DNA of 64,000 nucleotides, from assembly GCA_022606425.2 (NCBI GenBank), contig JAHDVF020001365.1, positions 868,001 to 932,000 on the forward strand, read 5' to 3'. The number at the start of each line of letters is the position of its first letter. Position 1 is the first letter of the stretch. Position numbers and translations under genes: made by a program. This document shows positions 15,905-62,060 of the stretch, piece after piece. A model generated the notes under the pieces. It saw only the letters and a list, made by a program, of their open reading frames with translations, was not told the DNA's origin and did no database searches. This DNA comes from Lepidostoma basale (Eukaryota > Arthropoda > Insecta > Trichoptera > Lepidostomatidae).

Positions 15905-16030
15905 AACACTGTATTATTTTCGCGACAGCTGTTTCCCCCAACTTTGTTGGCATTATCAAGTGTTACAAACAACTCTTTCATAACGCCTGATGATGCCAAC
16001 ATAGGTTGGCGAAACAGCTGTCGCGACAAT
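15905..16030. repeat. H1 foldback pair
   Basis: Two hammerhead-like motifs stand head to head: minus strand at 15,921-15,963 (core mutated to CTTGATAAT) and plus strand at 15,984-16,025 (core intact). The arms share CGCGACAGCTGTTTC and its complement. The loop between them is about 20 bp. Confidence 0.8.
15984..16025 (+). ncRNA. hammerhead ribozyme motif (H1), intact core
   Basis: The best H1 copy. Stem I is CGC/GCG, then CTGATGA with one extra T, stem II is GCCAAC/GTTGGC (six pairs) with loop ATAG, then GAAAC, the four bases AGCT, and GTC followed by GCG. The predicted cut is after C16022. As a monomer stem III is only two pairs (AC/GU), while as a dimer the palindrome ACAGCUGU gives eight pairs. 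Every residue needed for a minimal hammerhead is present apart from the extra U after A9. Confidence 0.8.
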
Positions 16031-17900: not shown

Positions 17901-18253
17901 GTCCCGTCTTCCACTATATTTTTATTCGAATAAATTTTAAAATTGAACAGGAGTTCTATCCTCCTTAATAACGTGATTTATAGCGTTTTTAAATATGGAT
18001 GTGATTAATATAAATCTTTGAATCTCATTTACGAACATGTATTTGGGTTCTCACGGTATTTTTCCATGTGTTCATTTTTTCATATTATTTTCGGGACATC
18101 TGTCAAAATCATCATCGTCCTAGCGTTAGCGTGCTTACATTATTTCGTTGTAGAACTGCTATAAGGACATACAGAATGTTTCGAAAGTTCCATATTCGAA
18201 TTTTAAATTCAAATTCAAAATATTCTTATTTTTCACAAAGTGGCATTACAAAT

Positions 18254-18349
18254 CGGGTGGTGGTCTAGCGGACAGAACGCTTGACCCCTGATCCAGAGGA
18301 CATGGGTTCAAGCCTGGATACGACCAGATTCCTCCATAATAATGAGTCG
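18254..18349 (+). mobile_element. SINE-B head
   Basis: tRNA-like head GGGTGGTGGTCTAGCGGACA, then GAACGCTTGACCCCTGATCC, then ATGGGTTCAAGCCTGG (B box GGTTCAAGCC) and ACGACCAGATTCC. It is cut at about 18,347 by an H3 hammerhead fragment. Fuller copies: 38.96-39.15 and 57.56-57.75 kb. Confidence 0.75.
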
Positions 18350-18425
18350 AAACCGGTCGCTGTCGAAATAAAGACAAATGTGGAACTTGTTAAAAAAACA
18401 TCGTTTTATTTCATTATTATTTAAA
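18348..18425 (+). repeat. H3 hammerhead element, partial
   Basis: Starts within GTCGAAACCGGTCGCTGTCG and runs through AAATAAAGACAAATGTGG to the family end AAAAACATCGTTTTATTTC. Only the 3' half of the hammerhead (GAAAC, CG, GTC) remains. Confidence 0.65.
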
Positions 18426-18607
18426 TCTTTGTGAGTTTGAATGTATTTTACAGACAACATTTTCTATTGATTTCACAATATTATGATTTTAAGAAAGCCT
18501 GACACTAGATTTTTTATGAATTAGAACACTGTTTTTTTCCATTTTCAATATATTTGTTCACATTAGAGATTACTCTTCTTAAAATATTTCTCAAGGGGTT
18601 TATCCTT

Positions 18608-18662
18608 TCATAACTAACTAACCATCACGCCGTTTCTCCGGAGGAGTAGGTAGAGATGATGA
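18608..18662 (-). pseudogene. LINE-A 3' tail
   Basis: Only the tail and the last 45 bp are present (CTAACTAACCATCACGCCG, then CCGGAGGAGTAGGTAGAG). Confidence 0.7.
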
Positions 18663-18821
18663 ATTAATGGTATTTATTTATTTATTTATTTACATTATAC
18701 ACAAATTAACTATTAATATGGTATTAACTGTTTAATATGGAGTTTTATATCGCTGTTCGAGAAACGATAAAAAAACTTTCGATTTATTGTAAAGAGTCCT
18801 TTCGTGAAAAACGGTGTGATT

Positions 18822-18838
18822 TTAGGTTAGGTTAGGTT
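18822..18838. repeat. interstitial TTAGG run
   Basis: TTAGGTTAGGTTAGGTT, three units of the canonical insect telomere repeat, inside non-telomeric sequence. Short runs of this sort are common in lepidopteran genomes. Confidence 0.8.
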
Positions 18839-18954
18839 CATTCTGTCATCATTATGACCACATGTCATATCATGATCACATGACCACACCAACGCAATGA
18901 TAAGTGTTTGACAAGAATAATCTGTGAAACGAACACTCTTCTATGTATTTGCAT

Positions 18955-19370
18955 ATCTTCTTCTTCCTCAGCCTATTCCCGTCCACTCCTGGACAAAGGC
19001 CTCCTCCATTCGCTTCCATGTCACTCTGTCTTGTGCAGACTGCATCCAGGTTATTCCGACGTGTCTGTTCAGATCATCCTTCCACCGTAGTTGCGGTCGC
19101 TCTGCACTTCTCTTTGCCGTCCACGGTCTCCAAGTCAGCAGTCTTCTTGTCCACTTTTCATCTGAGCTTCTGGCTACGTGACCTGCCCATTGCCATTTTA
19201 CAGTCGCCACCCGGTGGATGATGTCAATGACCTTTGTTTTTTCTCTCACCCTATCGTTTCTGACTCTGTCTCTTAGGCTTATCTCTAACATGGCTCTTTG
19301 GTTTACTCGTAGTTTCTCGGCATTTTGTTTGGACAATATAACAGTTTCAAGACCATAAGTACCAACTGGT
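18955..19370 (-). pseudogene. RTE-like LINE C-terminus, third family
   Basis: Open frame 18968-19336: LRVNQRAMLEISLRDRVRND, then IDIIHRVATVKWQWAGHVAR, SSDEKWTRRLLTWRPW, RPQLRWKDDLNRHVGITWMQ, and DRVTWKRMEEAFVQEWTGIG to the stop. All landmarks (LRDR.RN, KW.WAGHVAR, LRW.DD, DR..WK...EA.VQ.W) are in one frame, so this is a young or well-kept remnant. Only the C-terminal 120 codons survive. The 3' end is GAAGAAGAAG-like. Confidence 0.85.
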
Positions 19371-19599
19371 AGAATGCAGTATTCACAAATAGTTATGCGA
19401 AATTTACGAAATTATAGCGAAGATGCAACGAACAGTAAAGAAATAAACGAACCCATTGCCGATTGTATACGCTACCGTTCAAGATGCAGAGTAACGGAAG
19501 TGTTTTTTTTTTCAAATCCGGTTTAGAACCCTTGTGTCTCCACAGTTAACGGTTAGCTGCTGTATTTGAAAATTTTAAAAAATATGTTCTCATATTTTT

Positions 19600-19715
19600 T
19601 CTTCGTCATAACTTGGGATGGATCTTAATTACGAAAATGAAAACGTCTGTTTTCTTGAAGTTTTATTATGTGATGGGAATGACATGTTTCGTTAATGCCT
19701 TAGCAAAACGATACA
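19600..19715 (-). repeat. H4 hammerhead element, half copy
   Basis: Contains AAAATGAAAACGTCTGTTTT, then GGGAATGACATGTTTCG and AATGCCTTAGC, one arm of the H4 foldback. The partner arm is absent. GAAACAUGUC is intact but the first core box is not. Confidence 0.6.
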
Positions 19716-20069
19716 TTAGATCATATGTTTCCAATCTTTTCTGGGCCACCGCCCCCTTTACAAGACAAATAAACGTTCAACGCCCCCCTCCCATAAAAGT
19801 TATTCCAAAAAAGGGAAAATAATTACAATACATACAATAACAAAATACAACAATATTAAAGTTTAATTTGCTTTATTAGTACCTACGTGATTAGCGTTTT
19901 TTTTGTCTTTTTAGACTATATTTTTTTATCTGCCCACGCTCTCTATTTTTTCTGGGTCTTCTACTGCTCCTCTGAAAGTCTCAAACGCCCACAAGGGGGC
20001 GTTATCGCACACTTTGAGAACCTAGACATTAGATCATCAGGAGAAGTTTATAAATTCAGTCACATAAGT

Positions 20070-20155
20070 TTGTATCGTTCTGATGGTGAAGATCTTTGAA
20101 ACATGTCGAGAAAAATAAACTCATAAGAGGAAAAACGCAACGTTTCGAATCATAA
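20070..20155 (+). repeat. H5 hammerhead element, partial
   Basis: CTGATGG, GAAGATCTTT and GAAACATGTCGAG followed by AAAAATAAACTCATAAG mark the H5 family. A9 is changed to G, so it is probably inactive. Confidence 0.6.
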
Positions 20156-20165
20156 AAATTCGTCA

Positions 20166-20966
20166 TTTAGACCGGGAGCTAGAGGGAGTTGAGTATGCAT
20201 TATATGAGGACCGCACTCTGTTCATAGTTTTGAACTCAGAAAAGCTTGCAGATTATGATTCTGAATGTTGCCAGGAGGTTTGTTGGTCCAATTTTTTTTT
20301 CATTTTTTGCATCCCCTAAGATAACAAGTAAATGGACTGAAAAAATGCTTTGGAACTATTTTAATGATTGTTTTAGTGACAACATCTAATTATTTCTTAT
20401 GATAAAAGATACTTATAGCTAGTCAATTGAAATAGAAAAAATAAATTCAAGAATTATCATATAAAAAAATATTTAATACGAAAAAGCTAATTTTAACAAG
20501 TCATAAAAAAAACAAATAATCAATTGCTTTTTATTTTGGCAGCCATTATCAATACATTTGCACAACAAATACAATTTAGTTGTAATTTTATGCAATAACA
20601 AGCTTTTGTTAGGCGATTTGATGTACATTTACAGGGCTGAATCAACAATTCTGGCAATGGTCCCTTCGTTTGTTGCCGTGGGTACAATTTACATTTTTTT
20701 TCATAGCCAAATAAGGTGTAATCAATAGGTTGGAGTAGGGGTGTGGTTAGATATCCATACATATTTTTGTCCTGAAGCTCTAAACAAATGTAAATGTAGA
20801 GCATCTGATGTGCAAATTAATTTTAATAAATTTGAGCCCAAGCCGATATTTTGAAAAAAATAATTTATACCGAAGTTCATCAGCAGTTAATTTTTTGAGA
20901 AAAAATAAACTATGAACAGAGTGCGGTCCTCATAATTTGCATACTAAACTCCCTTTGGCGCCTGCA
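20166..20966. mobile_element. TIR element with Cys-rich ORF
   Basis: Terminal inverted repeats of about 55 bp: GGGAGTTGAGTATGCATTAT then GAGGACCGCACTCTGTTCAT on the left, and the complement of GGGAGTTTAGTATGCAAATT and the same GAGGACCGCACTC block on the right. The minus-strand frame 20520-20804 includes KKCKLYPRQQTKGPLPELLI then QPCKCTSNRLTKACYCIKLQ and LNCICCANV, a Cys-rich C-terminal pattern. I do not recognise the superfamily. The target duplication is not clear. Confidence 0.65.
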
Positions 20967-21039
20967 CTAATTACTGAATTCCACACACGTTTTGAGTTTT
21001 TAAGTGATAAAAAATTATTATTTATTTCTTGAACAATGT

Positions 21040-21160
21040 AGTTAAACAGTATCTTAAATAATTAATACGAATAAAAGCCTCTGTTTTCTAACAGTTTTAT
21101 TTTATTTTATGGGAATAACAAGTTTCGCCTGCTAAGGCATTATCATTTGAGCAAGGCAAA
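21040..21160 (-). repeat. H4 hammerhead element, half copy
   Basis: Arm with AATTAATACGAATAAAAGCC, GGGAATAACAAGTTTCGCC and GCTAAGGCATTATCA. Stem III is mutated (AACAAGTT instead of ACATGT). Confidence 0.6.
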
Positions 21161-21449
21161 ATGTTAATCTGAAACTATATATTTTCTTAATGCGTTGAAA
21201 AAATCTAATTTTTATTCTTGTCACTTTTATTTTATACAATTTAACTATATCTTGAAAAACGCATGACGTCATCAACATTCAAATTTTATGCTTACTTCTA
21301 ACCTATTTGCGTTTATTATTTTATCACGTATGGAAAATATTTGCACAGAAAATATCATAATCAAATAGCAGCTTCTCTGATAACACAAGAAGTATCTTCA
21401 ATGCTGATTAATCTTACATTTTATAAAAATTATAAGAGGCATTTAAAGG

Positions 21450-22190
21450 TGTAGTCTATCCAAAAAAAAAAAAACATGTCAGCGCAAAATGGTGTTCATG
21501 TGCCGATCCTTATGTATGGAAGTGAAGTATGGAACTGGCAAAGTATGGAAGTGGCAAACTCTTAGAATTATGTGATCAAATGCAAATATAATAAGTGAAT
21601 GCGGTGCGAATGAAAGTTTTATGAACGAAATAATGAAATAGTCGTTAAGATGGTTCGGACATATGGAATGAATTAATGAGGAAAGAATAATAAAAAAAGT
21701 ATATGTGATTAATATGAATGAAAACGTCTGTTTTCAAATTATATTATATTTTAGGTGAATGACATGTTTCGCCTGTCTATGGCAAAATCAAATGTCATTC
21801 GATATGAAAAAAGAATCAAAAGACATTTGATAATGCCTGAGACAGGTGAAACATGCCATTCACAAAAAAAAAATTAACTTCTTGAAAACATACGTTTTCA
21901 TTTGTATACAATTATTGAATATGGATTTTCATATCATTTTTCAAGAATCATCAAAAAAGTATATGTGTACGATGTAAATGGAACAATAAATTGAATAAGA
22001 CCGAGGAAAACGTGACACGATCAAATCAATCATATATTAAATGTCGGGCAAATATTAATCGACGTGCGTGCATGACACGATATATAAATGTTGAGGAACC
22101 GAAAGAATTGTGTCTAAAAAAAAATAGGGTGGCAGTCCGTAATTTCTGCCAAACTCTTCGGAGAAGTAGCGTAATAATTAGTAAGTTAGT
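21450..22190 (+). pseudogene. LINE-A fragment interrupted by H4 element
   Basis: 21,450-21,707 and 21,953-22,190. It covers NGVHVPILMYGSEVWNW, NIISECGANESFMNEIMK, SLRWFGHME, the VYVYDVNGT site that is split, KTWHDQINHILN-like and RRACMTRYINVEE regions. Heavily frameshifted. The split site is duplicated around the H4 insert. Confidence 0.8.
21708..21952. mobile_element. H4 hammerhead foldback with 15 bp target duplication
   Basis: Inserted in LINE-A between identical AAAAAAGTATATGTG copies (21,693-21,707 and 21,953-21,967). The two arms face each other: GAATGACATGTTTCGCCTGT on the left and GCCTGAGACAGGTGAAACAT on the right. The left arm stops at ATTAATATGAATGAAAACG, whereas the right arm extends about 40 bp further, so the element is truncated on one side. 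A long duplication plus one-sided truncation fits target-primed reverse transcription. The H4 core is TTGATAAT, weaker than a canonical hammerhead. Confidence 0.85.
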
Positions 22191-22198
22191 TTTTGAAA

Positions 22199-22508
22199 AA
22201 ACTAACTAACCATCACGCCGTTTCTCCGGAGGGGTGGACAGAGAGGATGGACTGCCACACCGTTCTGTCTTGACGTACCTTGTTAGCTCCCTCCACATGT
22301 ATACATCGTATCATACACACTCGTCGATTCTTCCGACTTCGAATGTGGCCGCCTTTCAGTATTTGATTAATTTGGTCATGCCATGCTTTCCTTGATCTTC
22401 CACTATATCTCTCTCCACTCACACTGCTTGTATACAATATTTTAACCATTATTCTCTCATCTATTCGTTCCATATGTCCAAACCATCTCACGGATCCTTT
22501 GATAATTG
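22199..22508 (-). pseudogene. LINE-A 3' fragment with open frame
   Basis: The frame 22213-22524 reads IIKGSVRWFGHMERIDERIM, then SGERYSGRSRKAWHDQINQI, RSRKNRRVCMIRCIHVEGA, and SILSVHPSGETA. The (TTAG)n tail is at 22,199-22,210. 5' truncation near 22,508. Confidence 0.85.
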
Positions 22509-22509
22509 A

Positions 22510-23010
22510 AGTATGAAACAACAATACAATACATTAAGATGTGTTTTGTTCCCTAATTTTGTATTTTTTCTATTGAGATTATATAGAGTGCGAAAAATAC
22601 CTCATTAGAACGGGTTATCCCAGTTAGGAGATATTCAAACTGAATGGTCAATAAATAAATATTTCTTTAATATTATAGTAAATGTTTGAAATTAGAATTT
22701 TGCATGAATAATTTATGAAACGTTCTTATTTCAAACAGCGTATTTGTACAGATCCGTTCATTTTTGGTTTCATGTCAATTAAGCTATATATTCAAATCAT
22801 ATTTGAAAGAGGATATTTTCCGGTCGTATTCAGAACATTCCCGTTTATGGTAATGACCACAACGGTTGTTGCTACACCCGGGAAATATTAAAATCAACCG
22901 GACCGATATGGAAATGGCCATAGGGGACATTCTATCGACAATACAGGTAGAATGATGGCCTTATACACATATAATATTTCGCAGACATTCACTGACGGCT
23001 AGAGTATGCC
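22510..23010. other. unassigned stretch
   Basis: No gene, repeat end or RNA motif I can support. Confidence 0.45.
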
Positions 23011-23012
23011 TT

Positions 23013-23135
23013 GATTGCTAACTAACTAACTAACTAACTTACCAATACGCCATTTCCCGGATAAGGATAAGCGGAAAGGCTAGACAAGCTCTTTTCTATC
23101 TTGACATATTCTATCTATTTATAAACCAAGAATAC
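23013..23135 (-). pseudogene. LINE-A 3' end, decayed
   Basis: CTAACTAACTAACTAACTTA followed by AATACGCCATTTCCCGG and GGATAAGCGG keeps the tail and a diverged copy of the 3' block. Confidence 0.6.
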
Positions 23136-23436
23136 CGAATGAATATAATACATATATTCACTACAAATACAATAGCATAATGAATCATTTTTATGCTCCA
23201 AATTGTGCCACTAAAGCACTTAAAAACTAATTTATTGTTTTTTGTACTTAAACTTTTTTCTGTATTCACCGTAACTTTATTAAATTTTTAAATTAAATGA
23301 ACGCACACATGATTCAGACTCAGAAGTATCAGTATAATTTATTATTTAATATAGAAAATAAAATTTAACCATATTTTTCATGATTGTGGTCACTTTTGAC
23401 AGTTTGACATTTTTTTCGATCGTTTATGCCTTTATT

Positions 23437-23502
23437 CGGGTGGTGGTCTAGGGGATAGAACGCTTGACTCCTGATCTAGGGGACATGGGTTCAAGCCTGT
23501 GA
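23437..23502 (+). mobile_element. SINE-B head
   Basis: TCGGGTGGTGGTCTAGGGGA then GAACGCTTGACTCCTGATCT and GGGTTCAAGCCTG keep both promoter boxes. The body is replaced downstream by unrelated sequence. Confidence 0.7.
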
Positions 23503-23587
23503 TGGTATTGAACCATCGTAGAGAGAGATGCGTGAATTCAGACGTAATACGAAAATAAATTCAAATGACTAGGAAATATAACACCTA

Positions 23588-23702
23588 ACCATGTGGGGGT
23601 AGGTCTAGGCGGGGAGCAGGGGAGACGCGGGGAGGGGAGAGAGGGGAGAGAGGGGAGCGGGGAAGGGTAGTGGGCCAGGGAGAGAGGTAGCTCGGGGCAG
23701 TT
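23588..23702 (+). other. G-rich purine tract
   Basis: About 115 bp of G-runs (GGGGGT, GGGG, GGGGA repeated, GGGGAGAGAGGGGAGCGGGG) in otherwise AT-rich DNA. There are at least eight runs of four or more G on the plus strand, enough for G-quadruplex formation. It precedes GTGGTACGAGGGGTGCGGC. It could be part of an LTR element leader, but this is not established. Confidence 0.7.
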
Positions 23703-24211
23703 GACTTCTGACCTGACGGGAAGCGGTCGCTTTGGTATTAAATTCAGTGGGTGTTTGTTGTTCTGATTATCAAGAACTTCATTTTATTTTGTATACAAGT
23801 ATAGTGGTACGAGGGGTGCGGCATTTGCAGATTTAAAAATACTATAGAATCAGTTTTCCTGAGCTGTTACGACTGAAAAGCTAAGTCTAGAATTAAGAAT
23901 TTATATTTCAGGAAATTGGAACGTATGCGTACGGCTTACTCCATGATTATACTATGCTTACGTTTATGTATTACATACATGTACCTAGATATATATATGT
24001 ATATGATATATTGATACCTTTCCTATACTGCACGTAATATAGTTCACTAACACTCGGGCCAACGCATCGCGCCCGAACAAGGTATTCACTAACTCATCGA
24101 ATACTGAAATCTTAGTTATGGACATGTAGCGTTCTAACAAAATTTGCCATCTTCTATATAAATAAACATATAAACTTCGACCCATGCAAATTATGCTACA
24201 TAAATATGGTT

Positions 24212-24495
24212 GACTGCTGATGAATGAAGACAGTTAGGAGGGGTTGGGATCGCGCACTTCTTTGACCCCACCGAAAGACGAAATATAAGGTAGTATGGTG
24301 AAAGACCCTGCTATCTGTCTATTGGTGGAGATTGTCTCGAAGGTGAGTGGACCGACTGCTGACGAATGAAGACAGTTAGGGGAGGTTGGGATCGCGCACT
24401 TCTTTGACCCCACCGAAAGACGAAATATAAGGTAGTATGGTGAAAGACCCTGCTATCTGTCTATTGGTGGAGATTGTCTCGAAGGTGAGTGGACC
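24212..24495. repeat. 142 bp tandem duplication
   Basis: Unit starting GACTGCTGATGAATGAAGAC and ending GAAGGTGAGTGGACC, at 24,212-24,353 and 24,354-24,495. The copies differ at only a few bases, so the duplication is recent. Confidence 0.9.
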
Positions 24496-24499
24496 GAAC

Positions 24500-25415
24500 T
24501 TCGAAAACCCCTGATAGGGTGATGGCCAGGTTCATGGGTTTGAATCCCCAGGTCCACTGATTAAGGGTTGGGAGGTAGATCGTCTGGTCCCCAGACGATT
24601 CTGCTGTGGAGCAGTGGAGAAAAATCATCAGTCTGACGAAAAGACTGGTTCGACGCGATACTAACACTATTATATCCCAGTTATCCCCCACAACTCCTTA
24701 TATACTTAATATATTATATTTTGACACTGAATTGTTATATAACCTGTGCCTTTCAGGAAGCTGTTCCTTATTGCATCATTATTACATTACGCTCTGATTT
24801 AAATTACTGTACATCGTATTTGTTCCAAATTATTTGTGAATGTTTCTTCCAGGGCTGCCACATTTTCTAGAGATAATATTCTGAATTATATTCTGTAAAC
24901 TTAGAGATATTTTAGGTTGTTTGGTTTAGATGTTCCTAGGAAATATTGAGTGACATATAGTTTGATTACACGTGGGTTTGTCAGGATTGCTTAGAATATT
25001 CGGAAGGGTTAGGAACGATTAGCTTTAGAATGAAATTATCAGTAATCGCCAAATAAAAGGACTTGGATTACATCGGTCATAACAAAGGGTCATACGGTAT
25101 TATTTCTAGACGATCACGAAGGCCAACTCGCGTAAGGTAAAACACCTGTAAGCTCCGTACAGGTGGATGAAGAGAGAATGACTGGAGGAAGCTCCACCAT
25201 TCGCGGAGGAAGGTTAGGAGGGATTTTGCTTAGGTTCATCGCGGATAGGTCATTTCACCACATTCGGTGCCGTGACCAGGATGGGGTCATCACAGTGATG
25301 ATGACCAGGAAGGATGAAGGCTGGGTTCCGATCGGGGACCAGCTCATTTTACCACATTTGGTGCCGTGACCAGGATTAGACATCACGGAGATTGTGGACA
25401 GGACGATTCCATCAC
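24500..25415 (+). other. LTR-retrotransposon-like leader, tentative
   Basis: Two copies of a primer-binding-site-like phrase (GGTGCCGTGACCAGGAT) occur at 25,266 and 25,361, preceded by a stretch with a polyadenylation signal (AATAAAAGG at 25,053). This phrase looks like the leader of insect LTR elements. No gag or pol and no second LTR were found. The 142 bp duplication just upstream may belong to the same element. Confidence 0.3.
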
Positions 25416-25418
25416 AAG

Positions 25419-25535
25419 CCTGAACACGACCAGATTCCTTCTTCATAATAATAAGCTATTTTCTGCTCACATTGAAGATTGTAAAATAAATTTTAATATC
25501 ATTGATATAAATCCTTGATGTTAGTCTTTTTTTAA
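25419..25535 (+). mobile_element. SINE-B 3' part
   Basis: Contains CACGACCAGATTCCTTCTTC, TAATAAGCTATTTTCTGCTC and GATTGTAAAATAAATTTTA, ending TTAGTCTTTTTTTAAA. It matches the body and tail of the 57.56 kb copy. The tRNA-like head is missing. Confidence 0.7.
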
Positions 25536-25614
25536 AAAAAATATATATATATTACAAATATTTTGTTTGTTGTGTTTTTGGGTAACACCGTGTGGTCTGG
25601 ATAACTCCTTCTCG

Positions 25615-25655
25615 ACCGACGTTTCGGAGATCGTTTCAGTCTCCATCTTCAGGGT
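25615..25655 (-). ncRNA. hammerhead ribozyme motif (H6), minus strand
   Basis: Stem I ACC/GGT, CTGAAGA with an extra T, stem II GGAGA/TCTCC, then GAAACGTC. All conserved core positions are present (N7 is A). Stem III is the four-base palindrome ACGU with no loop, so it needs a second molecule or an alternative fold. Mirror image of the plus-strand copy. Confidence 0.75.
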
Positions 25656-25668
25656 AAACAATGTCATT

Positions 25669-25709
25669 ACCCTGAAGATGGAGACTGCAACGATCTCCGA
25701 AACGTCGGT
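25669..25709 (+). ncRNA. hammerhead ribozyme motif (H6), plus strand
   Basis: Stem I ACC (25,669-25,671) pairs with GGT (25,707-25,709). CTGAAGA is at 25,672-25,678, stem II GGAGA/TCTCC encloses CTGCAACGA, and GAAACGTC is at 25,699-25,706, with predicted cleavage after C25706. Stem III is palindromic ACGU. Confidence 0.78.
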
Positions 25710-25804
25710 CGAGAAGGAGTTACCCAGACCACACGGTGTTACCCAAAAACACAACAAACATATTGCTGCCAACCGTGAAAATCTACGCAATTACAAATAT
25801 TTTA

Positions 25805-26285
25805 AATAAATCTAATAATATTATTAATTACTTATTGGGGTCCAGTTAAATTAATTTGATTATTTATAATAGTTTCTTTATTTTTAATTGCTTTTTTAAT
25901 TTATAAGATTTCATGATTATTTCGAGTTATATTTCTATTATTAACTTGTTACATTTCAGCATTATATTTATTGAAAGTATGATCTTTTTCAATGAGATGA
26001 TTAGCGAATTCGAAAAACTAAATTTATTTGAATTTTATAGGTAAACTTTAAACATAATGCATAAAATCCATTAGCCCTATTTTTTTAAATTATTAAAAAG
26101 ATGCGGTATGTGAGTGTTCCTAAGCTTAAAACATCACGATACTAGAGCGGTTAATGCGTTCTTGAGGTTTTTACATTACAAAAACGGCGCATTAAAAATT
26201 AGCATATTATTATTATCTGTTCGTCGGTGATTTGAGAGCATAATTCCCAAAATATATATTGTTTTGTAATATATAAAAATAATAT
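25805..26285. other. unassigned AT-rich stretch
   Basis: No supported feature. The stretch TTCTTGAGGTTTTTACATTA, then AAAACGGCGCATTAAAAATT near 26,160 resembles the 3' UTR end of the CR1-like family but is too diverged to assign. Confidence 0.4.
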
Positions 26286-26289
26286 TTCG

Positions 26290-26480
26290 TCTTGTTACAG
26301 GTAAGTCGATATTGTTCATCTCCCGGCATCCGAGCGGCTGCGTGGACCGCATCTCTACCGGGATGTGCAGTTAGCTGCAGGTACGTGCGTCTCGAAAGTT
26401 GCATCTCCATATATGCGAGCCAGCTCCCATCTGTCGGACCTGCCCAGCTTCCAGCACCGAGGCATATGACGTTTGTCCTT
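26290..26480 (+). other. GC-rich patch with splice-like borders
   Basis: Short GC-rich interval (CTCCCGGCATCCGAGCGGCT, CCGCATCTCTACCGGGATG) preceded by TTCGTCTTGTTACAG, a good acceptor, and containing CTGCAGGTACGT, a good donor, at about 26,380. One open frame is 26292-26567. It may be a host exon. I do not recognise the peptide. Confidence 0.25.
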
Positions 26481-26628
26481 ATACAAGAGACGGGTGAGCT
26501 AATAACACCTCATTTGCATAATACTGGACCAACTGTACACGGTTTTATTTCAGTATTAAGAATATAATTTAAAATAACGCAATACAACATATGTTTTATT
26601 TAAGCATAGTAAATAAATATTTATTAAT

Positions 26629-27026
26629 TCATGATTTAATTGTATCTCAATAGAGACGAAGATACAAATTGGAAACTGAATATGGTTGATCAAGGTGTTA
26701 ACAGGACTTATGACCTGTCATTGGTTGGGTTAAGCGCACGCTTTATGTAATTACAACATTCCCCATTCCACATTTCTTTATGACCATGTATGACAAATGT
26801 TTGGAAGTTGTATATATGTTAAAGTTCTATGCCAGATTTCACATGTCAGTTTCAATGTGCCATCTATGAAGATTTTGATTACATATGTTAATCTTTTTTT
26901 TAAGATTACTCTATATATAATCTACATACTAACGCCATCTATGGAGATTTATGTAAACACCTTGATCAACCATATTCAGTTTCCAATTTGCATCTTCGTC
27001 TCTATTGAGATACAATTAAATCATAA
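26629..27026. mobile_element. foldback element (IR-1 family), complete pair
   Basis: Left arm ATTTAATTGTATCTCAATAG then CTGAATATGGTTGATCAAGG, with the right arm its inverse, ending GAGATACAATTAAATCAT. The loop has CATGTCAGTTTCAATGTGCC and GATTACATATGTTAATC. Post-arm sequence is shared with the 5.58 kb copy. No coding capacity. Confidence 0.78.
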
Positions 27027-27098
27027 ATTGATAACCCACGGTGGGTGAAATTCAGTATTCGTATACAAGTATAAGTATACATTCACAAAAAAAAAAAA

Positions 27099-27330
27099 AT
27101 CTTGAAAAATGATGCAAAACTCCATATTTAATAATTAATACGAATGAAAACGTCAGTTTTTTAGAAGTTTTATTAAATTTTATGGAAATGACATGTTTCG
27201 CCCTTCTAAAGTACTTCTAAAGTATGTGGAGTTAAAACATTTGATAATGCCTTAGAATGGCGAAACATGTCATTCCCATAAAATATAATAAACCTTCTAG
27301 AAAACTGGCGTTTTCATTCGTATTCAATAT
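27099..27330. mobile_element. H4 hammerhead foldback pair
   Basis: Arms AATACGAATGAAAACGTCAG...GAAATGACATGTTTCGCCC and the inverse on the right. The right motif reads TTGATAAT, GCC/GGC stem, GAAACATGTC, ATTCCC. Termini match the full ends seen at 21.9 and 55.8 kb. No clear target duplication. Confidence 0.75.
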
Positions 27331-27422
27331 TTTTTGTCAAATGAACGAACGCATTCTATAATAAAGATAACTATGTTTAAAATGTTCACGTTAATAATAG
27401 AAATTTAACTTTAAATAACTTT

Positions 27423-27658
27423 TTAAAGATAATCAAATGATTTTACTGAAATCTCTTGATGGAAGCTCATTTTAAATAATAATTAAATAAAACGATGTTC
27501 TTAAACTACTTCCACTTTTGTCTTTATTTAGACAGCGACCGGTTTCGCCAGGCTCGCTGGCCAGTCTGTCGATGCCAGCGAGCCTGGCGAAACCGGTCGC
27601 TGTCTAAATAGAGACAAAATTGGAAGTAGTTTAAAAACATCGTTTTATTTAATTATTA
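27423..27658. mobile_element. H3 hammerhead foldback with 13 bp target duplication
   Basis: Flanked by TTTAAATAACTTT at 27,410-27,422 and 27,659-27,671. Left terminus TTTAAAGATAATCAAATG, right terminus CGTTTTATTTAATTATTA. The arms carry GACAGCGACCGGTTTCGCCA and its inverse. The plus motif has CTGTCGAT, stem II GCCAG/CTGGC, GAAAC, CG, GTC and GCTGTC. Compared with a canonical core, A6 is changed to U. Relatives: 18.35, 39.5 and 44.8 kb. Confidence 0.85.
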
Positions 27659-27711
27659 TTTAAATAACTTTGATATTTTATAAAAATAAAGAAGAAAACG
27701 AATTTATATGA

Positions 27712-28133
27712 ATTAAAACACTGCTTTTTTTCACTTAGAGTTTATTTTTCTAGACATGTTTCGAAAGCTTACGCCTTCATCATCGAGAGAACGATATAAA
27801 CAACCAAATAAGCTTAACTTCAAGTCCAATATTTGATTTGTTTCCCCTTACCCATAATTCTTACTTACTTTTAACCCTAACCCTACTCTTAATTCCCCAC
27901 CCCCCACCTTTTTTTTTTTGCATTTAGTATAAACCATAAGTAATCATTTTCTTTCATTACACTGTTAGCATTTTTATAAGTTTATTTTACTCGACTTTAC
28001 TATATAATTATCGGGAGAACGATTAAAACAGTTTATATCGTTCTCCCGAAGATGATGGTGTAAAGCTTTCGAAATATGTCGAGAAAAATAAACAACTCAA
28101 AAGTGGAAAAAATTGTGTTTTAATTAAAAAAAT
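27712..28133. mobile_element. H5 hammerhead foldback pair
   Basis: Outer ends GAATTAAAACACTGCTTTTT and the inverse TTGTGTTTTAATT. The minus-strand motif (27,757-27,798) has stem II GAAGGC/GCTTTC and GAAACATGTC with a shifted first box. The plus motif at 28,045-28,085 has GAAATATGTCGAG. A 215 bp spacer, longer than in the other families, includes two CCCTAA units. Confidence 0.7.
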
Positions 28134-28184
28134 ATCGTCATGCATATAATAATAAAAACAGCATACAGTATAATCATAATAATC

Positions 28185-28838
28185 ATTAAAAGAGACAATA
28201 AATGATAAATGATGATATTGGGCGAGTGGAGAGGGATATTGAAAGAAGGGTTGGGGCAGGCAACAAAGTGAATGGTGCACTTAAAGTTGTCACCGCAAAC
28301 AAAAACCTATCCAAAACAGCTAGAATGGCAGTGCACAATGGTGTTCTTCTACCGACCCTTATGTATGGAAGCGAAGCATGGAACTGGCAGAAGAAGGATG
28401 AAAGTAGAATAAATGCCGTAGAAATGAGATCTCTTAGACGAATGTGTGGATACTCTGTGTATGATAGAGTGTCGAATGAAAATATAAGAAGTGAATGCGG
28501 TGCGAATGATGGTGTCATGAACAAAATAATGAAAGGATCATTGAGATGGTTTGGACATATAGAAAAAGAACGAATGAAGAAATAATGGTAAAAAAATTAT
28601 ATGTTAATGATGTAAATGGAACCAGAAATAGAGGAAGACCGAGGAAAACGTGGCACGACCAAATAAATCAAATATTGAATGTCGGCCATGTGAGGAGTCA
28701 GAGAAATCGACGCGCGTGCATGACGCGATGTACGAATGTTGAATAAGCGAGAGGAATATGTCAGGAGAGAAAAGTGTGGCAGTCCATTCTTTCTGCCTAC
28801 CCCTTCGGGGAGACGGCGTGATGGTTAGTTAGTTAGTT
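28185..28838 (+). pseudogene. LINE-A, most 5'-extended copy
   Basis: Extends further upstream than the other copies: INDDIGRVERDIERRVGAGN, then KVNGALKVVTANKNLSKTAR, MAVHNGVLLPTLMYGSEAW, NWQKKDESRINAVEMRSLRR. Then comes a frameshift near 28,565, MVKKLYVNDVNGTRNRGRPR, KTWHDQINQILNVGHVRS, and RRACMTRCTNVE with a stop. The 3' end GGCGTGATGGTTAGTTAGTT is intact. The segment before YGSEAW is the thumb-like region of LINE reverse transcriptases. Confidence 0.88.
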
Positions 28839-28894
28839 AGTTATAAATGATGAGTACAGTGAAGGAGCGATATATGCAGGAATCAGAAGCATGT

Positions 28895-29095
28895 TTGAAG
28901 TAGTTTTTAGCCTCCTTGATGTGTTATTCCAAGCTCTTCGTTCCTGTCCCATTTGCTATCAGCAGTCCTTTCAGCCTTGGCTAGATAAGCCAGAATATTA
29001 TCCATTAGGCGTGTCTAGGCATTCCTAGAAGTCTTACTCCGGTTGGTCTTCAACTCGCCATACGTGACCAATCCATACTAGGCGACATATTATTT
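28895..29095 (-). pseudogene. RTE-like LINE C-terminus
   Basis: Diverged relative of the 6.13-6.43 kb copy: CCATTTGCTATCAGCAGTCC, GGCTAGATAAGCCAGAATAT, TTAGGCGTGTCTAGGCATTC and CGCCATACGTGACCAATCC appear in the same order. Confidence 0.55.
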
Positions 29096-29204
29096 ATTTA
29101 TTAGTCTCACTCCGCAGTTCACATACCCCATTCAATAATGCCTTACAAGGCAATGAGCCATTCCCGTGAAATTGAATAAAACTTCATTATAAATTATATG
29201 ATTT

Positions 29205-29295
29205 CTTGAATAAGGATGTAAAACTCCATATTAAATAATTAATACGAATGAAAACGTCCGTTTTCTAGAAGTTTTGTTATATTTTATGGGGATGA
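29205..29295 (-). repeat. H4 element, terminal part of one arm
   Basis: TTTCTTGAATAAGGATGTAA, ACTCCATATTAAATAATTA and ACGAATGAAAACGTCCG match the outer end of H4. The hammerhead part is lost. Confidence 0.65.
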
Positions 29296-29364
29296 AGACC
29301 ATTTGGGTAGCTATGCCAGTTACATACCTTCAACTCAAAATAATGAAAAAATAAATGTTTTGCA

Positions 29365-29369
<5 letters not shown>

Positions 29370-29419
<50 letters not shown>
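29370..29419. repeat. (AT)n microsatellite
   Basis: About 50 bp of pure TA dinucleotides. Confidence 0.95.
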
Positions 29420-29422
<3 letters not shown>

Positions 29423-29544
29423 GCAATACTTAGGTTAATACTTCGACGGTTTCGGTAGCTTCCAAAACCGGTCGAATCATCCTAAGTGGAATCTAACTAA
29501 ATATATGTTATAAAGAAAATTTTAAATTTTAAATTGAAAAAGGA

Positions 29545-30268
29545 TTTTGAAAATTTGTTTGGTTCATGTGGTGCGGTGCTCCTGTAAATTTGGAGATATT
29601 TCGTGTATAAGTGAATTATTTTGGTCAATTTAACTGTTGCCGCACTTTATAATAGTTAATTGTGACACGTAATACGTTTGTACTGTTTTGCTGTTAAAAT
29701 ATATTAGTTTTATCGTTTTTATAAAGAATTTTGACAGGTGTAAAAATAATTTTTTCATTTGTTCCAATGACAATTTGAATAATTTCTTCAATATTATTTT
29801 AAAGTTCTTGCTGGTTAAGTGCCTAATTACAGCTAAATTAAAAAAACGGTGGATACGTGTAACATAAATTAAATAAACACAAAAGTCCGGATCGTCCATG
29901 TCAACATGTGCAACATCGAGAAAAACATTATGTGTTATTACATTATGTGCTAAATTAAAATTGTGAATTCGTGGAATATAAACTAAATAAACAATATGTG
30001 CACCATCTAAAAAGAACATTTTGTGTTAAATTATTATTATTTTATTTTATATCATTGTATTTTATATTATTTATTTTGTGGTCGTTGGACGATCGAAGTG
30101 TGCGCGGGAGATGCCTATTGGTGGCGATGAGGTTCGCAACCCATCACACCGCGTCTCCCGCGGGGCGAAAAGAGAAGGATGGAGTGCCGCATCGGTAAAA
30201 GTGTGACAGTCCATTCTTTCTGCCTACCCTTTCGGGGAGACGGCGTGATGGGTAGTTAGTTAGTTAAG
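29545..30268 (+). mobile_element. LINE-A-NA, non-autonomous partner, near full length
   Basis: Starts around GGTTCATGTGGTGCGGTGCT and runs through TTGACAGGTGTAAAAATAAT, CGGTGGATACGTGTAAC, TATGTGCACCATCTAAAAAG, GTGCGCGGGAGATGCCTATT and CGCGTCTCCCGCGGGGCGAA. It ends with the LINE-A 3' block (CCATTCTTTCTGCCTACC, GGCGTGATGG) and TAGTTAGTTAGTTA. No coding capacity. It shares only the last 60 bp or so with LINE-A, the usual arrangement for a SINE mobilised by a partner LINE. Other copies at 30.9, 31.7, 32.5, 53.4, 54.0 and 60.5 kb. Confidence 0.82.
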
Positions 30269-30414
30269 AAAATTTTAATTAAGAAAATATATTTTTTCAT
30301 TATTTACCATTAACTACTACTATCATTAAATTTCTATTACTACAATAACATTAATATATTACCTTTAACTTATTTATTACTTCTTAAACAATGATATTAT
30401 ATAAATCTCTATAT

Positions 30415-30600
30415 AAAATAATTAATTCGAAATGTCGATTGGGATTAATGGGATTGACATGTTTCGCCTTGCTAAGGTATTATTGTATGTTGATATGCCT
30501 GCAAAAAACTTGCCTTAGCAAAGCGAAAAATGTCATTCTCAAAAAATATAAAAATACTTTCAGAAAACAGACGTTTTCATTTGAATAAAATAGAAATATT
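30415..30600. mobile_element. H4 hammerhead foldback pair
   Basis: Left arm GGGATTGACATGTTTCGCCT, right arm GCCTTAGCAAAGCGAAAAAT, then ACAGACGTTTTCATTTG. Degenerate on the right (GAAAAATGTC). Confidence 0.7.
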
Positions 30601-30660
30601 TTATAAACTATTAAGTTAAAAAAACTTTGTTTCGTACATCACAATTGTATTTTTATTTTT

Positions 30661-30701
30661 CGCGACAGCTGTTTCGTCAACCTATGTTGACATCATCAGG
30701 T
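30661..30701 (-). ncRNA. hammerhead ribozyme motif (H1)
   Basis: Minus strand: CTGATGA plus T, stem II GTCAAC/GTTGAC with loop ATAG, GAAACAGCTGTC, GCG. Core intact. Stem I has one or two good pairs only. Confidence 0.7.
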
Positions 30702-31622
30702 TTTACAATAATAACTCTATATTATTTGTAATGTTTCTTCTAATTACTGTTTTTATTATTTATTTTTTCTACCTTTAATATGTTCTCCTATAAATAGTAA
30801 CATACCGTTTTTTTAATTAAAATAATTAGGTACCTTACTAAACTCCAGCAACAACTTAAAAATTTTATCAAAGGAATTATTCAAATTGACATAGAAACAA
30901 ATACACATAAAGGTTCGAAAAATCACGAAAATTTGAAAACTAACTCACCATCACGCCGTCTCCCCGAAAGGGTAGGCAGAAAGAATGGACTGTCACACTT
31001 TATCCGATGCGCCACTCCATCCTTCTCTTTTCGCCCCGCGGGAGACGCGGTGTGATGGGTTGCGAACCTCATCGCCACCAATAGGCATCTCCCGCGCACA
31101 CTTCTATCTTCCAACATCCGTAAAATAAATCTCAAACAAATTATATAAAATACAATGATATAAAATAAAATAACAAAATAAAATTAATTTAATACAAAAT
31201 GTTATTTTTAGATGGTGCACATATTGTTTATTATATGATTTAATTAATGTTCCACGTATCCACTTTTTTTTTAAATTAGCAGTAATTAGGCACTTAAAAC
31301 CAACCAACACCAGCAAGAACTTGAAAAGAATATTGAAGAAATTATTCAAATTGTCATTGGAACAAATGAAAAATGTATTTTTCCACCTGTCAAAATTCTT
31401 TATATAAACGAAAAAACTTGTATAATTTTGACATCAAAACAGTACAAACATATTACGTGTCACAATTAACTATTATAAAGTGCGCCAACAATCAAATTGA
31501 CCAAAACAATTCACTTATACACGAAATTTCTCCAAATTTACGGGAGCACCGCACCACATGAAACAAACCAAATTTTCAAAATCCAAATCAACGAAAATTT
31601 GACATTTGATGTATTATTGTAA

Positions 31623-31664
31623 CACCTGATGATGTCAACAAAGGTTGACGAAACAGCTGTCGCG
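31623..31664 (+). ncRNA. hammerhead ribozyme motif (H1), array unit 1
   Basis: CAC, CTGATGA plus T, stem II GTCAAC/GTTGAC with loop AAAG, GAAACAGCTGTC, GCG. Core intact. Stem I has CAC opposite GCG, explained by a CG to CA transition from the CGC seen at 15,984. Confidence 0.72.
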
Positions 31665-32397
31665 AAAAATAAAAATACAGTTGTGATACAGAAAACAAAG
31701 TTTTTTAAACTAACTAACTAACTAACCATCACGCCGTCTCCCCGAAAGGGTAGGCAGAAAGAATGGACTCACACTTTAACCGATGCGGCACTCCATCCTT
31801 CTCTTTTCGCCCCGCGGGAGACGCGGTGTGATGGGTCGCGAACCTCATCGCCACCAATAGGCATCTCCCGCGCACATTTCGATCTTCCAACATCCACAAA
31901 ATAAATCTAAAACAAATAATATAAAATACAATGATATAAAATAAAATAACAAAATAAAAATAATTTAATACAAAATGTTATTTTTAGATGGTGCACATAT
32001 TGTTTATTATATGATTTAATTAATGTTCCACGTATCCACTTTTTTTTTAAATTAGAAGTAATTAGGCACTTAAAACCAACCAACACCAGCAAGAACTTGA
32101 AAAGAATATTGAATAAATTATTCAAATTGTCATTGGAACAAATGAAAAATTTATTTTTCCACCTGTCAAAATTCTTTATATAAACGAAAAAACTTGTATA
32201 ATTTTGACATCAAAACAGTACAAACATATCACGTGTCACAATTAACTATTATAAAGTGCGCCAACAATCAAATTGACCAAAACAATTCACTTATACACGA
32301 AATTTCTCCAAATTTACGGGAGCACCGCACCACATGAACCAAACCAAATTTTCAAAATCCAAATCAACGAAAATTTGACATTTGATATATTATTGTA

Positions 32398-32440
32398 ACA
32401 CCTGATGATTTCAACATAGGTTGACGAAACAGCTGTCGCG
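32398..32440 (+). ncRNA. hammerhead ribozyme motif (H1), array unit 2
   Basis: As unit 1, but with CTGATGA plus TT and stem II TCAAC/GTTGA, one pair shorter. GAAACAGCTGTC and GCG are unchanged. Confidence 0.68.
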
Positions 32441-33143
32441 AAAAATAAAAATACAGTTGTGATACAGAAAACAAAGTTTTTTAAACTAACTAACTAACTA
32501 ACCATCACGCCGTCTCCCCGAAAGGGTAGGCAGAAAGAATGGACTGTCACACTTTAACCGATGCGGCACTCCATCCTTCTCTTTTCGCCCCGCGGGAGAC
32601 GCGGTGTGATGGGTTGCGAACCTCATCGCCACCAATAGGCATCTCCCGCGCACACTTCGATCTTCCAACATCCACAAAATAAATCTAAAACAAATAATAT
32701 AAAATACAATGATATAAAATAAAATAACAAAATAAAAATAATTTAATACAAAATGTTATTTTTAGATGGTGCACATTTGTTTATTTAATTTATGTTCCAC
32801 GAATCTACCGTTTTTTAAATTTAGCACATAATGTAATAACACATAATGTTTTTCCGATGTTGCACATGTTGACATGGACGATCCGGACTTTTGTGTTTAT
32901 TTAATTTATGTTATACGTATCCACCGTTTTTTAAATTAGCTGTTATATGATTTAATTAATGTTCCACGTATCCACTTTTTTAATTTGGCAGTAATTAGGC
33001 ACTTAAAACCAACCAACACCAGCAAGAACTTAAAAAGAATATTGAAGAAATTATTCAAATTGTCATTGGAACAACAAGTTTTTTAATTTAACAGTTTATA
33101 ATTGTTTAAGTGTCATAGTGTTTCGGCCAAAACAATGGACTAT

Positions 33144-36166: not shown

Positions 36167-36606
36167 CGCTCAAATGAACATTTTGTCACCAGTAGTGAGC
36201 GCATCCACGGTGACGCAACGTGATAGTTACAAAAAGTTACTGCAACAAAAAGTCACAGTCAGCGCCTAGCCTTACTGTATACAATTTATTTTTTAGCCAT
36301 TATATTGATTCTCCTGACATGTGAATGGTAGCCAATCTATCGCCATGTTATTGTCACGTGAATTCTACACCAGACCAAAGACAGTGTGACAATCACACTG
36401 CCATCGCCGGGAATCGAACCCGGGACCTTCAGTATGGAAGTCAGAGCTCTTACAACTCTGCCACAAAGGTTTGACACACATTCGTCTTAGAGATCTCATT
36501 TCTACTGCATTTATTCTACTTTCATTCTTCTTTTGCCAGTTTCATGCTTCACTTCCATACATACGGGTCGGCACAAGAACACCATTATGCACTGCCATCT
36601 TAGCTC

Positions 36607-44774: not shown

Positions 44775-44975
44775 AATGATAATCAAATGATTTTACTGAA
44801 ATCTCTTGATGGAAGATCATTTTATTAAAAAATTGAACGATGTTTTTTAATTACTTCCACTTTCGTATTTATTTCGGTTTCGCCAGGCTCGCTGGCATCT
44901 ACAGACTGGGCTCTCGAAATAAAGACGAAAGTTGAAGTGGTTAAAAAACATCGTTTTATTTAATTATTAGTTGAA
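44775..44975. mobile_element. H3 hammerhead foldback, decayed pair
   Basis: Same outer sequences as the 27.4 kb element (AATCAAATGATTTTACTGAA, GAAATCTCTTGATGGAAG, then AAAACATCGTTTTATTTAAT at the right), but the hammerheads are damaged: GGTTTCGCCAGGCTCGCTGG remains on the left and the right one is mostly deleted. Confidence 0.7.
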
Positions 44976-45046
44976 ATAATGAAAGGGTCGTAAAGATGGT
45001 TTGGACACATGCAAAGAATGAGTGAAGAAGGTATATGTAAACGACG

Positions 45047-53757: not shown

Positions 53758-53781
53758 AGTATTTTTATTCACTGAGAGTGT

Positions 53782-53823
53782 CGCGACAGCTGTTTCGCCA
53801 ACCGATGCTGACATCATCGGGTG
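53782..53823 (-). ncRNA. hammerhead-like motif (H1)
   Basis: Core box CCGATGA (U4 changed to C), stem II GTCAGC/GTTGGC with loop ATCG, GAAACAGCTGTC, GCG. The change at U4 should reduce activity. Confidence 0.6.
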
Positions 53824-53846
53824 TTACAATAAACAATTTATTGTAA

Positions 53847-53888
53847 TACCTGATGATGCCAACATCGGTTAGCGAAACAGCTGTCGCG
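53847..53888 (+). ncRNA. hammerhead ribozyme motif (H1)
   Basis: CTGATGA plus T, stem II GCCAAC/GTTAGC (one mismatch) with loop ATCG, GAAACAGCTGTC, GCG. Core intact. Confidence 0.68.
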
Positions 53889-53956
53889 ACACTCTGTGAA
53901 TATAAAGAAATTGTGATATTATAAGAGTATTTCAATTAAACCATTAATAACATTGA

Positions 53957-55829: not shown

Positions 55830-56040
55830 AGAAGAACAATGATGTAAAACTCCATGTTAAATTATTAATAAGTATGAAAAACGACAGTTTTCAAGGAGTT
55901 TTATTATAATATTTATGTATGACACGTTTCGCCCTTCTAAGGTATTTTCAAAATGTTTTTTAAAAAGACCTTAGAAGGGCGAAACATGTCATACATAAAT
56001 ATTGTAATAAAACTCCTTGGAAACTATCGTTTTTCATACA
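55830..56040. mobile_element. H4 hammerhead foldback pair
   Basis: Arms AAAAACGACAGTTTTCAAGG, TATGACACGTTTCGCCCTTC and the inverse (AGAAGGGCGAAACATGTCAT, CTATCGTTTTTCATA). The left outer end AATGATGTAAAACTCCATG matches other H4 ends. The first core box is missing; only the GAAACAUGUC half is kept. Confidence 0.75.
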
Positions 56041-61374: not shown

Positions 61375-62060
61375 AGATGCCGACGCTAAGGATGATACCA
61401 GGAAAGACTCTTTGAGATAGGGTGAGGAACACGGCTATCCACGATATCTCCAAGGTGGAAGATGTCGTGAGATGGGGCACGCAACGCAAGATACTGGCAT
61501 GTATGGATCCCACACCCGATTGTTATATTTATGAACTAATTTTGAAATGGTATGTACAGGTTGGATTAATTGGTTTAATTCCACTATTAGAGGCAGAACA
61601 GGAGTGTCGGACATCATCGGAAGAGTGGCAGCGCTAAAATGGCATGCCGCTCGCAGCCCTGATGATAGATGAACTGCAACCCGAAACCCAGGACGTCCTC
61701 AACTTCGATGGAGGGACGACATTGGATGCGTTTTTCCCAGGATCGACAGACATTGAATCAGATGGAGGAGGCCTACGCCCAGGAAGATTGTTATATTTAT
61801 GAACTAATTTTGAAATGGTATGTACAGGTTGGATTAATTGGTTTAATTCCACTATTAGAGGCAGAACAGGAGTGTCGGACATCATCGGAAGAGTGGCAGC
61901 GCTAAAATGGCATGCCGCTCGCAGCCCTGATGATAGATGAACTGCAACCCGAAACCCAGGACGTCCTCAACTTCGATGGAGGGACGACATTGGATGCGTT
62001 TTGCCCAGGATCGACAGACATTGAATCAGATGGAGGAGGCCTACGCCCAGGAGTGAACGG
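61375..62060 (+). pseudogene. RTE-like LINE C-terminus with 268 bp tandem duplication
   Basis: Starts EMPTLRMIPGKTL, a stop, DRVRNTAIHDISKVEDVVRW, GTQRKILACMDPT. Then a 268 bp unit (61,518-61,785 and 61,786-62,053) encodes, in mixed frames, GVSDIIGRVAALKWHAARS, RNPGRPQLRWRDDIGCV and the MEEAYAQE end. Each unit begins GATTGTTATATTTATGAACT. The tail is GGCTCATGATGATGATGAT at 62,066-62,085. Confidence 0.8.

Follow-up and report, generated by a model that had tools for sequence, protein, structure and literature searches.

A foldback with two head-to-head minimal hammerheads and Penelope-like anatomy in the caddisfly Lepidostoma basale

Foldback A and its probable origin

A 64,000-nt stretch of the genome of the caddisfly Lepidostoma basale (assembly GCA_022606425.2, contig JAHDVF020001365.1, positions 868,001 to 932,000; called here the window, in whose coordinates all positions are given) contains within 25551-25803 a short foldback, foldback A, in which two nearly identical arms lie head-to-head between target site duplications (TSDs) and each carry a complete minimal hammerhead core. 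Overall, it is best explained (probability about 0.6) as a head-to-head insertion derived from a Penelope-like element (PLE) and made by two-strand target-primed reverse transcription. Very probably it is a non-autonomous PLE-derived insertion, namely two 5′-truncated 3′ portions of the pseudo-long terminal repeat (pLTR) joined at their heads; priming from both nicked strands is the most likely route of its formation and is held at about even odds.

The arms are 93 nt each, are identical at 91 of 93 positions and are separated by a 9-nt spacer (automated repeat finding reports 94 nt at 98%, since one TSD base gets included). An earlier reading, made from the letters of the window and called here the sequence-only reading, had described an inverted repeat of about 90 bp per arm between perfect 14 bp target duplications, and both are borne out. 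It had the two arms between the TSDs right and overlooked that the element is asymmetric: the left arm stops at the TSD and the right arm extends 30 nt further before the TSD is reached. It also overlooked an ATG frame that runs to the end of both arms. The features are as follows.

25551..25564, strand not assigned, left TSD ATTACAAATATTTT, 14/14 match to the right copy
25565..25657, sense on the - strand, left arm, tail-less, ending at nt 82 of its own ATG frame
25565..25646, - strand, ATG frame METETISETSVEKELSRPHGVTQKHNK, 82 nt, open
25615..25655, - strand, left minimal hammerhead (stem I ACC/GGU, CUGAAGA, extra U, stem II GGAGA/UCUCC, GAA, palindrome ACGU, C17)
25658..25666, strand not assigned, head-to-head junction ACAATGTCA
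25667..25759, sense on the + strand, right arm
25669..25709, + strand, right minimal hammerhead, same core composition as in the left arm
25678..25789, + strand, ATG frame METATISETSVEKELPRPHGVTQKHNKHIAANRENLR, 112 nt, open to the element end, presumed start of the PLE open reading frame (ORF)
25736..25752, + strand, AC-rich stem-loop GUGUU-ACCCAAA-AACAC just before the proximal end (frame nt 59-75)
25760..25789, + strand, PLE-type tail, 30 nt, right arm only
25790..25803, strand not assigned, right TSD ATTACAAATATTTT

The TSD is beyond chance. When the 200-nt flanks were dinucleotide-shuffled 5000 times, no match longer than 10 arose, against 14 observed, given that a match had to end no more than 2 nt from the left end and start within 60 nt of the right arm end; in a second test with preset ends 1 of 1000 shuffles reached the score, a test that was not blind, the right end being known from the repeat. 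The flanks (100 bp) are AT-rich, 82% and 86%, so that foldback A has the AT-rich target and TSD of PLE-derived insertions. At 225 bp the element is too short to contain an ORF with reverse transcriptase (RT) and GIY-YIG domains. It is the single foldback of its family in the window; blastn with the right arm and tail found, below E 0.08, only itself and the left arm.

Hammerhead cores

The combination of CTGAAGA, a U, a five-pair stem II and GAAACGTC occurs once in each arm, on opposite strands and reading outward from the centre. In what we take to be the standard hammerhead numbering, the catalytic core is complete in both arms (C3 U4 G5 A6 N7 G8 A9, G12 A13 A14 A15.1, U16.1 H17), with one extra U after A9. 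The sequence-only reading had correctly listed CUGAAGA, the five-pair stem II and stem I of each arm and missed this U. Cleavage is predicted between 25618 and 25617 in the left arm and between 25706 and 25707 in the right. A strict scan for box 1, stem II and GAAA returned both arms and three other sites in the window, with a mean of 0 in 30 shuffled windows; a looser scan that required a palindromic stem III gave 7 matches, both arms among them, where 30 shuffles averaged 0.57 and never exceeded 2.

Stem III is a palindrome without a loop, so a monomer would have no real stem III and a dimer would have four pairs in it. This is the PLE type, a minimal type I hammerhead that lacks a regular stem III, and the earlier suggestion of Penelope-type hammerheads with a palindromic stem III (here ACGU) is supported. 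PLE hammerheads have been described as minimal variants that may act as dimers (PMC7761336, PMC6155905).

Comparison with known Penelope-like elements

A biochemically mapped element for comparison is Poseidon of Anolis carolinensis (PAc), whose RNA is cut 26 nt after the ATG and is reverse transcribed from about nt 111-118, in an AC-rich loop (PMC11167929). The ATG of foldback A likewise overlaps the hammerhead and lies at the start of stem II, as the PAc ORF does, with C3 and G8 preceding it, and the predicted cut falls 26 nt after it. The outer ends of foldback A are nt 112 (right) and nt 82 (left) of the ATG frame; the former falls in the PAc start region, and the latter fits a second start site of the kind seen in the "tail" rule, by which one of two inverted pLTRs may carry an optional 30-40 bp tail (here 30 nt, on the right arm). 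An optional tail and AT-rich targets are further points of likeness. Foldback A differs from PAc in that no RT or endonuclease gene was found in it, in that its AC-rich loop is near the proximal start, and in that its pair is inverted rather than tandem. It is called PLE-derived mainly because the distances agree with those mapped in the anole element, and PLE-derived rather than a PLE because there is no room for the gene and no RT or GIY-YIG match in 18001-33002. The proposed link to PLEs is drawn from anatomy and distances rather than from sequence homology.

Inverted pLTRs are known from Penelope elements of the rotifer Adineta vaga, with TSDs of 8-10 bp and with a 31-bp tail carried by one of the inverted pLTRs; head-to-head is the commonest inverted arrangement observed there (PMC3846280). 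Inverted pLTRs and short 3′ extensions have also been listed as peculiarities of individual PLE copies (PMC8969392). The arrangement of foldback A is therefore not new in kind, and the suggestion in the sequence-only reading that it might be undescribed is not supported by these two papers. Rotifer Pen2a, Pen2 and Pen3a share with foldback A the head-to-head inverted pLTRs, the TSD, the one-sided tail (31 bp) and AT-rich targets, but the rotifer examples have an ORF or a captured gene between the pLTRs and TSDs of 8-10 bp, whereas foldback A consists of two short arms only (PMC3846280). The word hammerhead is absent from the text of the rotifer paper, and the anole paper does not discuss inverted pLTRs (its sole "inverted" is a 3′ inverted dT; PMC11167929).

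Two other kinds of hammerhead-bearing DNA resemble foldback A in part. The non-LTR retrozymes of metazoans are small and ORF-less, have type I hammerheads and, when a TSD is present, one of more than 4 bp (PMC7229834, PMC7761336); foldback A is instead one inverted pair with minimal hammerheads, and identification as a retrozyme was rejected, as it has no direct tandem repeats with a canonical type I hammerhead. Dispersed minimal type I hammerheads likewise have cores without an ordinary helix III in non-coding DNA, mostly with no carrier given, whereas those described here lie inside head-to-head foldbacks with PLE-type ends (PMC7761336). Neither ORF-less head-to-head hammerhead foldbacks nor two-sided priming as the origin of inverted pLTRs was found in the available portions of the open-licence literature searched, and no claim of priority is made. 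A search of paper texts for the core letters gave, among the matches listed, apparently unrelated papers only. Pattern matches to the core and AC-rich end in viral and prokaryotic collections (7, 12 and 12 stretches) were treated as chance, their flanks by eye showing no core beside an AC-rich end; a further scan of this kind had no match, and a plasmid search at E<=10 gave partial matches in 6 records (best E 1), which were rejected.

A proposed route of formation

From the arms, cores, frame, end positions and TSD, which can be read in the DNA, we infer an enzyme, priming on both strands and a joining step. A PLE ribonucleoprotein would nick the two strands of an AT-rich target with a 14-bp stagger, and each target 3′ end would prime cDNA synthesis on the PLE RNA from an internal point downstream of the hammerhead. 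The start sites would differ, one strand using the distal (ORF nt 112) and the other the proximal (ORF nt 82). Synthesis of each cDNA would halt shortly upstream of the hammerhead, the heads would then be joined to each other, and filling-in of the 14-nt overhangs would generate the TSD. The sequence-only reading had taken the long duplication as a sign of target-primed reverse transcription, and this is supported by the 14 bp TSD together with ends at RT start sites. The PAc protein acts on AT-rich ATT sites, where it cuts both strands and extends them, and it uses two start sites in vitro (PMC11167929); the steps that follow reverse transcription in PLE insertion are, according to the same 2024 paper, still to be validated.

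The arms retain sequence 5′ of the cut, which implies that the templates were uncleaved there; the ribozymes of foldback A would have been inherited with the pLTR in uncleaved templates. An uncleaved RNA template is also suggested by the work on PAc in vitro (PMC11167929).

Other hammerhead foldbacks in the window

At least six further such foldbacks, from two other hammerhead families (B and C), lie in the window. The families are told apart by their stem III palindromes, which are ACGT in A, ACCGGT in B, ACATGT in C and ACAGCTGT in a fourth type, D.

27423..27664, B1 (GAAACCGGTC family), tail on left arm, TSD 13/13 at 27410-27422 and 27659-27671, the right copy overlapping the arm end by 6 nt
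44775..44977, B2 (GAAACCGGTC family), tail on left arm, TSD not significant
27096..27331, C1 (GAAACATGTC family), tail on left arm, TSD not significant
21708..21952, C2 (GAAACATGTC family), tail on right arm, TSD 15/15 (23/25 extended) at 21693-21707 and 21953-21967
55835..56037, C3 (GAAACATGTC family), tail on left arm, TSD not significant
30400..30588, C4 (GAAACATGTC family, degenerate), tail on left arm, TSD not significant

A clear TSD of 13-15 bp is kept in three of the seven foldbacks, for which 1 (A), 1 (B1) and 0 (C2) of 1000 shuffles were as good; the ends used in this test were taken from alignments, and for A and B1 the repeats were already known. Profile searches and alignments show that B and C copies may carry a 3′ extension of some 34-47 nt. 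In all six B and C foldbacks exactly one arm has this tail, as judged by alignment to the tails of other copies with 1000 mononucleotide shuffles: at most 1 of the 1000 shuffles scored as well as a tailed arm, except for the left arm of C4 against C1 (63), whereas 157-992 scored as well as an untailed one. With A, assigned by inspection only, the tail is one-sided in 7/7. Solo copies occur with it (C, at 29295) and without it (B, at 18346 and 39571); further solo C copies, of ambiguous tail status, are at 21139 and 19692. An ATG is present within the first 17 nt in five of the seven tails inspected, those of B1, C1, C2, C3 and solo copy 29295, but not in those of B2 and C4, and the frames, translated by eye, begin MSFHQEISV... 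in B1 and ME/MD-F... in C copies, as expected if the tails reach the start of a PLE gene.

Among the 13 strongest foldbacks of the window (E below 1e-18), GAAAC lies outward of the centre in both arms of 7, in one arm of 1 and in neither arm of 5; with a background of 0.023 per 31-nt stretch the probability of at least 7 of 13 is about 5e-9, the distance range and the cut-off having been chosen post hoc. The underlying inverted-repeat scan excluded low-complexity foldbacks, near-duplicate centres and matches below 30 nt; 52 of 81 were retained, of which 40 were listed. C4 stands at rank 18 in it (E 2e-7), and its place in family C comes from the profile search.

The B cores are not intact: the single copy that passes the looser scan, with one mismatch, has A6 changed, and no C copy passes. 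Unlike the intact cores of foldback A, the B and C ribozymes look dead.

Weighing of the alternatives

Several observations weigh against the PLE-derived, two-strand reading. Neither Rfam 15 at gathering or at E<=10 (25301-26050), a check that the sequence-only reading had itself suggested and that went against it here, nor Pfam RT or GIY-YIG profiles in six frames of 18001-33002 (E<=0.1) gave a hammerhead or a protein match, respectively. To our knowledge, Rfam has no model for the PLE hammerhead variant that lacks stem III. The isolated 41-nt core has a best fold of -8.8 kcal/mol that is not the hammerhead, versus -5.9 for the hammerhead pairing (tertiary terms excluded), and the predicted folds of single arms are no more stable than those of shuffles (z 0.24 and -0.06). 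An open frame of 37 codons is by itself weak evidence, and the AC-rich stem-loop is near the proximal end rather than at the distal start (nt 111-118) as in PAc. Four TSDs are not significant (shuffles as good of 1000: B2 382, C1 933, C3 249, C4 62). One-sided tails in 7/7 are more regular than two independent choices of start site predict, and comparison of the arms gave no sign of different template lineages for the two arms of a foldback. Finally, B1 and B2 (27471-27664 and 44817-44974) have by eye the same asymmetric head junction with tails on opposite arms relative to it, which independent two-sided events do not predict; this hints that some foldbacks spread ready-made, or that the B pLTR begins with the palindrome of this junction.

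Some of these points are what self-priming would produce, in which the cDNA from the distal site snaps back at its head and copies itself to the enzyme-held tail, which then joins the second nick. The A. vaga authors hypothesised this for head-to-head inverted pLTRs and called for experiments (PMC3846280). It would account for the one-sided tails in 7/7, and partner arms are mutual best matches by identity in B1, C1 and C3 (the A arms being identical at 91/93), but not in B2, C2 and C4; in a tree of the C arms those of C2 and C3 pair, those of C4 do not and C1 is unresolved, the right arm of C2 and the left arm of C4 having long branches. We nevertheless consider self-priming unlikely. The tail-less ends lie by eye at nearly one place per family, so a copy that stopped there would need a special block; the version of the A. 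vaga authors requires an antisense template (PMC3846280), and the published PLE enzyme extends both strands from two start sites in vitro (PMC11167929). Priming on both strands is favoured because both outer ends are at RT start sites and because a 14-nt stagger places primable 3′ ends at the nicks. The junction common to B1 and B2 is the main attraction of a different idea, that the foldback itself transposes: a PLE acting in trans would reverse transcribe the read-through RNA of the foldback, and junctions would be inherited. That B1 and B2 have their tails on opposite arms relative to the junction, that both ends are at start sites and that the window holds a single family A foldback make this improbable.

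The foldback shape and flanking direct repeats would also suit a DNA transposon or a miniature inverted-repeat transposable element (MITE) with long terminal inverted repeats. This is almost certainly not the case and was rejected: the termini are not symmetric, 30 nt being present on one side only, the ends match RT start sites, and TSD length is not constant (13-15 bp in three copies). A further proposal is that the real significance of foldback A is as a source of hairpin RNA (miRNA or endogenous siRNA) rather than of ribozymes. Transcripts through the element are predicted to fold as one arm-long hairpin (-177.9 and -182.4 kcal/mol), which could feed small-RNA pathways, and the Rfam matches in the region, all sub-threshold and mostly to hairpin families, include miRNA families. 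The miRNA matches are far below gathering, however (best 38.3 versus 109), and are expected of a long foldback, and the proposal seems very improbable. The same hairpin pairs each core with its own complement, so the ribozymes should be masked, and a dimer in cis should be impossible between cores on opposite strands; ribozyme activity of foldback A today is probably nil.

Type D cores and other features of the window

Three intact D cores (CTGATGATG..GAAACAGCTGTC, with an 8-nt palindromic stem III) lie at 15987-16022 (+), 31626-31661 (+) and 30699-30664 (-), and all pass the looser scan; CGAAACAGCTGTC has 11 copies in the window at up to 2 mismatches. An Rfam scan of a stretch with other hammerhead-like cores gave no hammerhead match. 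D cores also form head-to-head foldbacks, at 53762-53906 and 15916-16030, which are outside the tail count of seven foldbacks above. Neither has a significant TSD: 75 and 271 of 1000 shuffles, respectively, did equally well, and the former is flanked by a weak 7-bp repeat, AGTATTT. In a foldback at 482-658 (88%) the right arm reaches a degenerate D hammerhead and the left arm ends at the start of that motif (CCTGA). A 300-nt stretch is present three times in tandem, about 777 bp apart, at 30993-32846, with a fourth copy (62% alike) at 14826; the tandem includes the D hammerhead at 31626 and a degenerate one near 32402.

The window is also rich in what appear to be fragments of non-LTR retrotransposons. 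It contains an (AT)n array of about 128 units (2543-2799), a 268-bp tandem duplication that is nearly perfect (99% matches, 61518-62052) and a borderline tRNA match on the - strand (36399-36470; 29.5 bits, cut-off 29).

Implications for Penelope-like element integration

Such foldbacks bear on the route of PLE integration and on the origin of inverted pLTRs: within about 250 bp each preserves the TSD, the junction and the two ends, and so records the whole reaction. One might speculate, doubtful as it is at present, that PLE integration is obligately asymmetric, two subunits of the complex starting at the distal and the proximal RNA site; the one-tailed head-to-head foldback would then be the basic outcome whenever both cDNAs stop short of the gene, and the dispersed minimal hammerheads of animal genomes would largely be relics of such aborted insertions, with the ribozyme uncleaved in the template. 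A census of tails, ends and junctions in PLE-rich genomes would help to separate two-sided priming from self-priming, and would bear on whether the hammerhead is normally uncleaved in templates.
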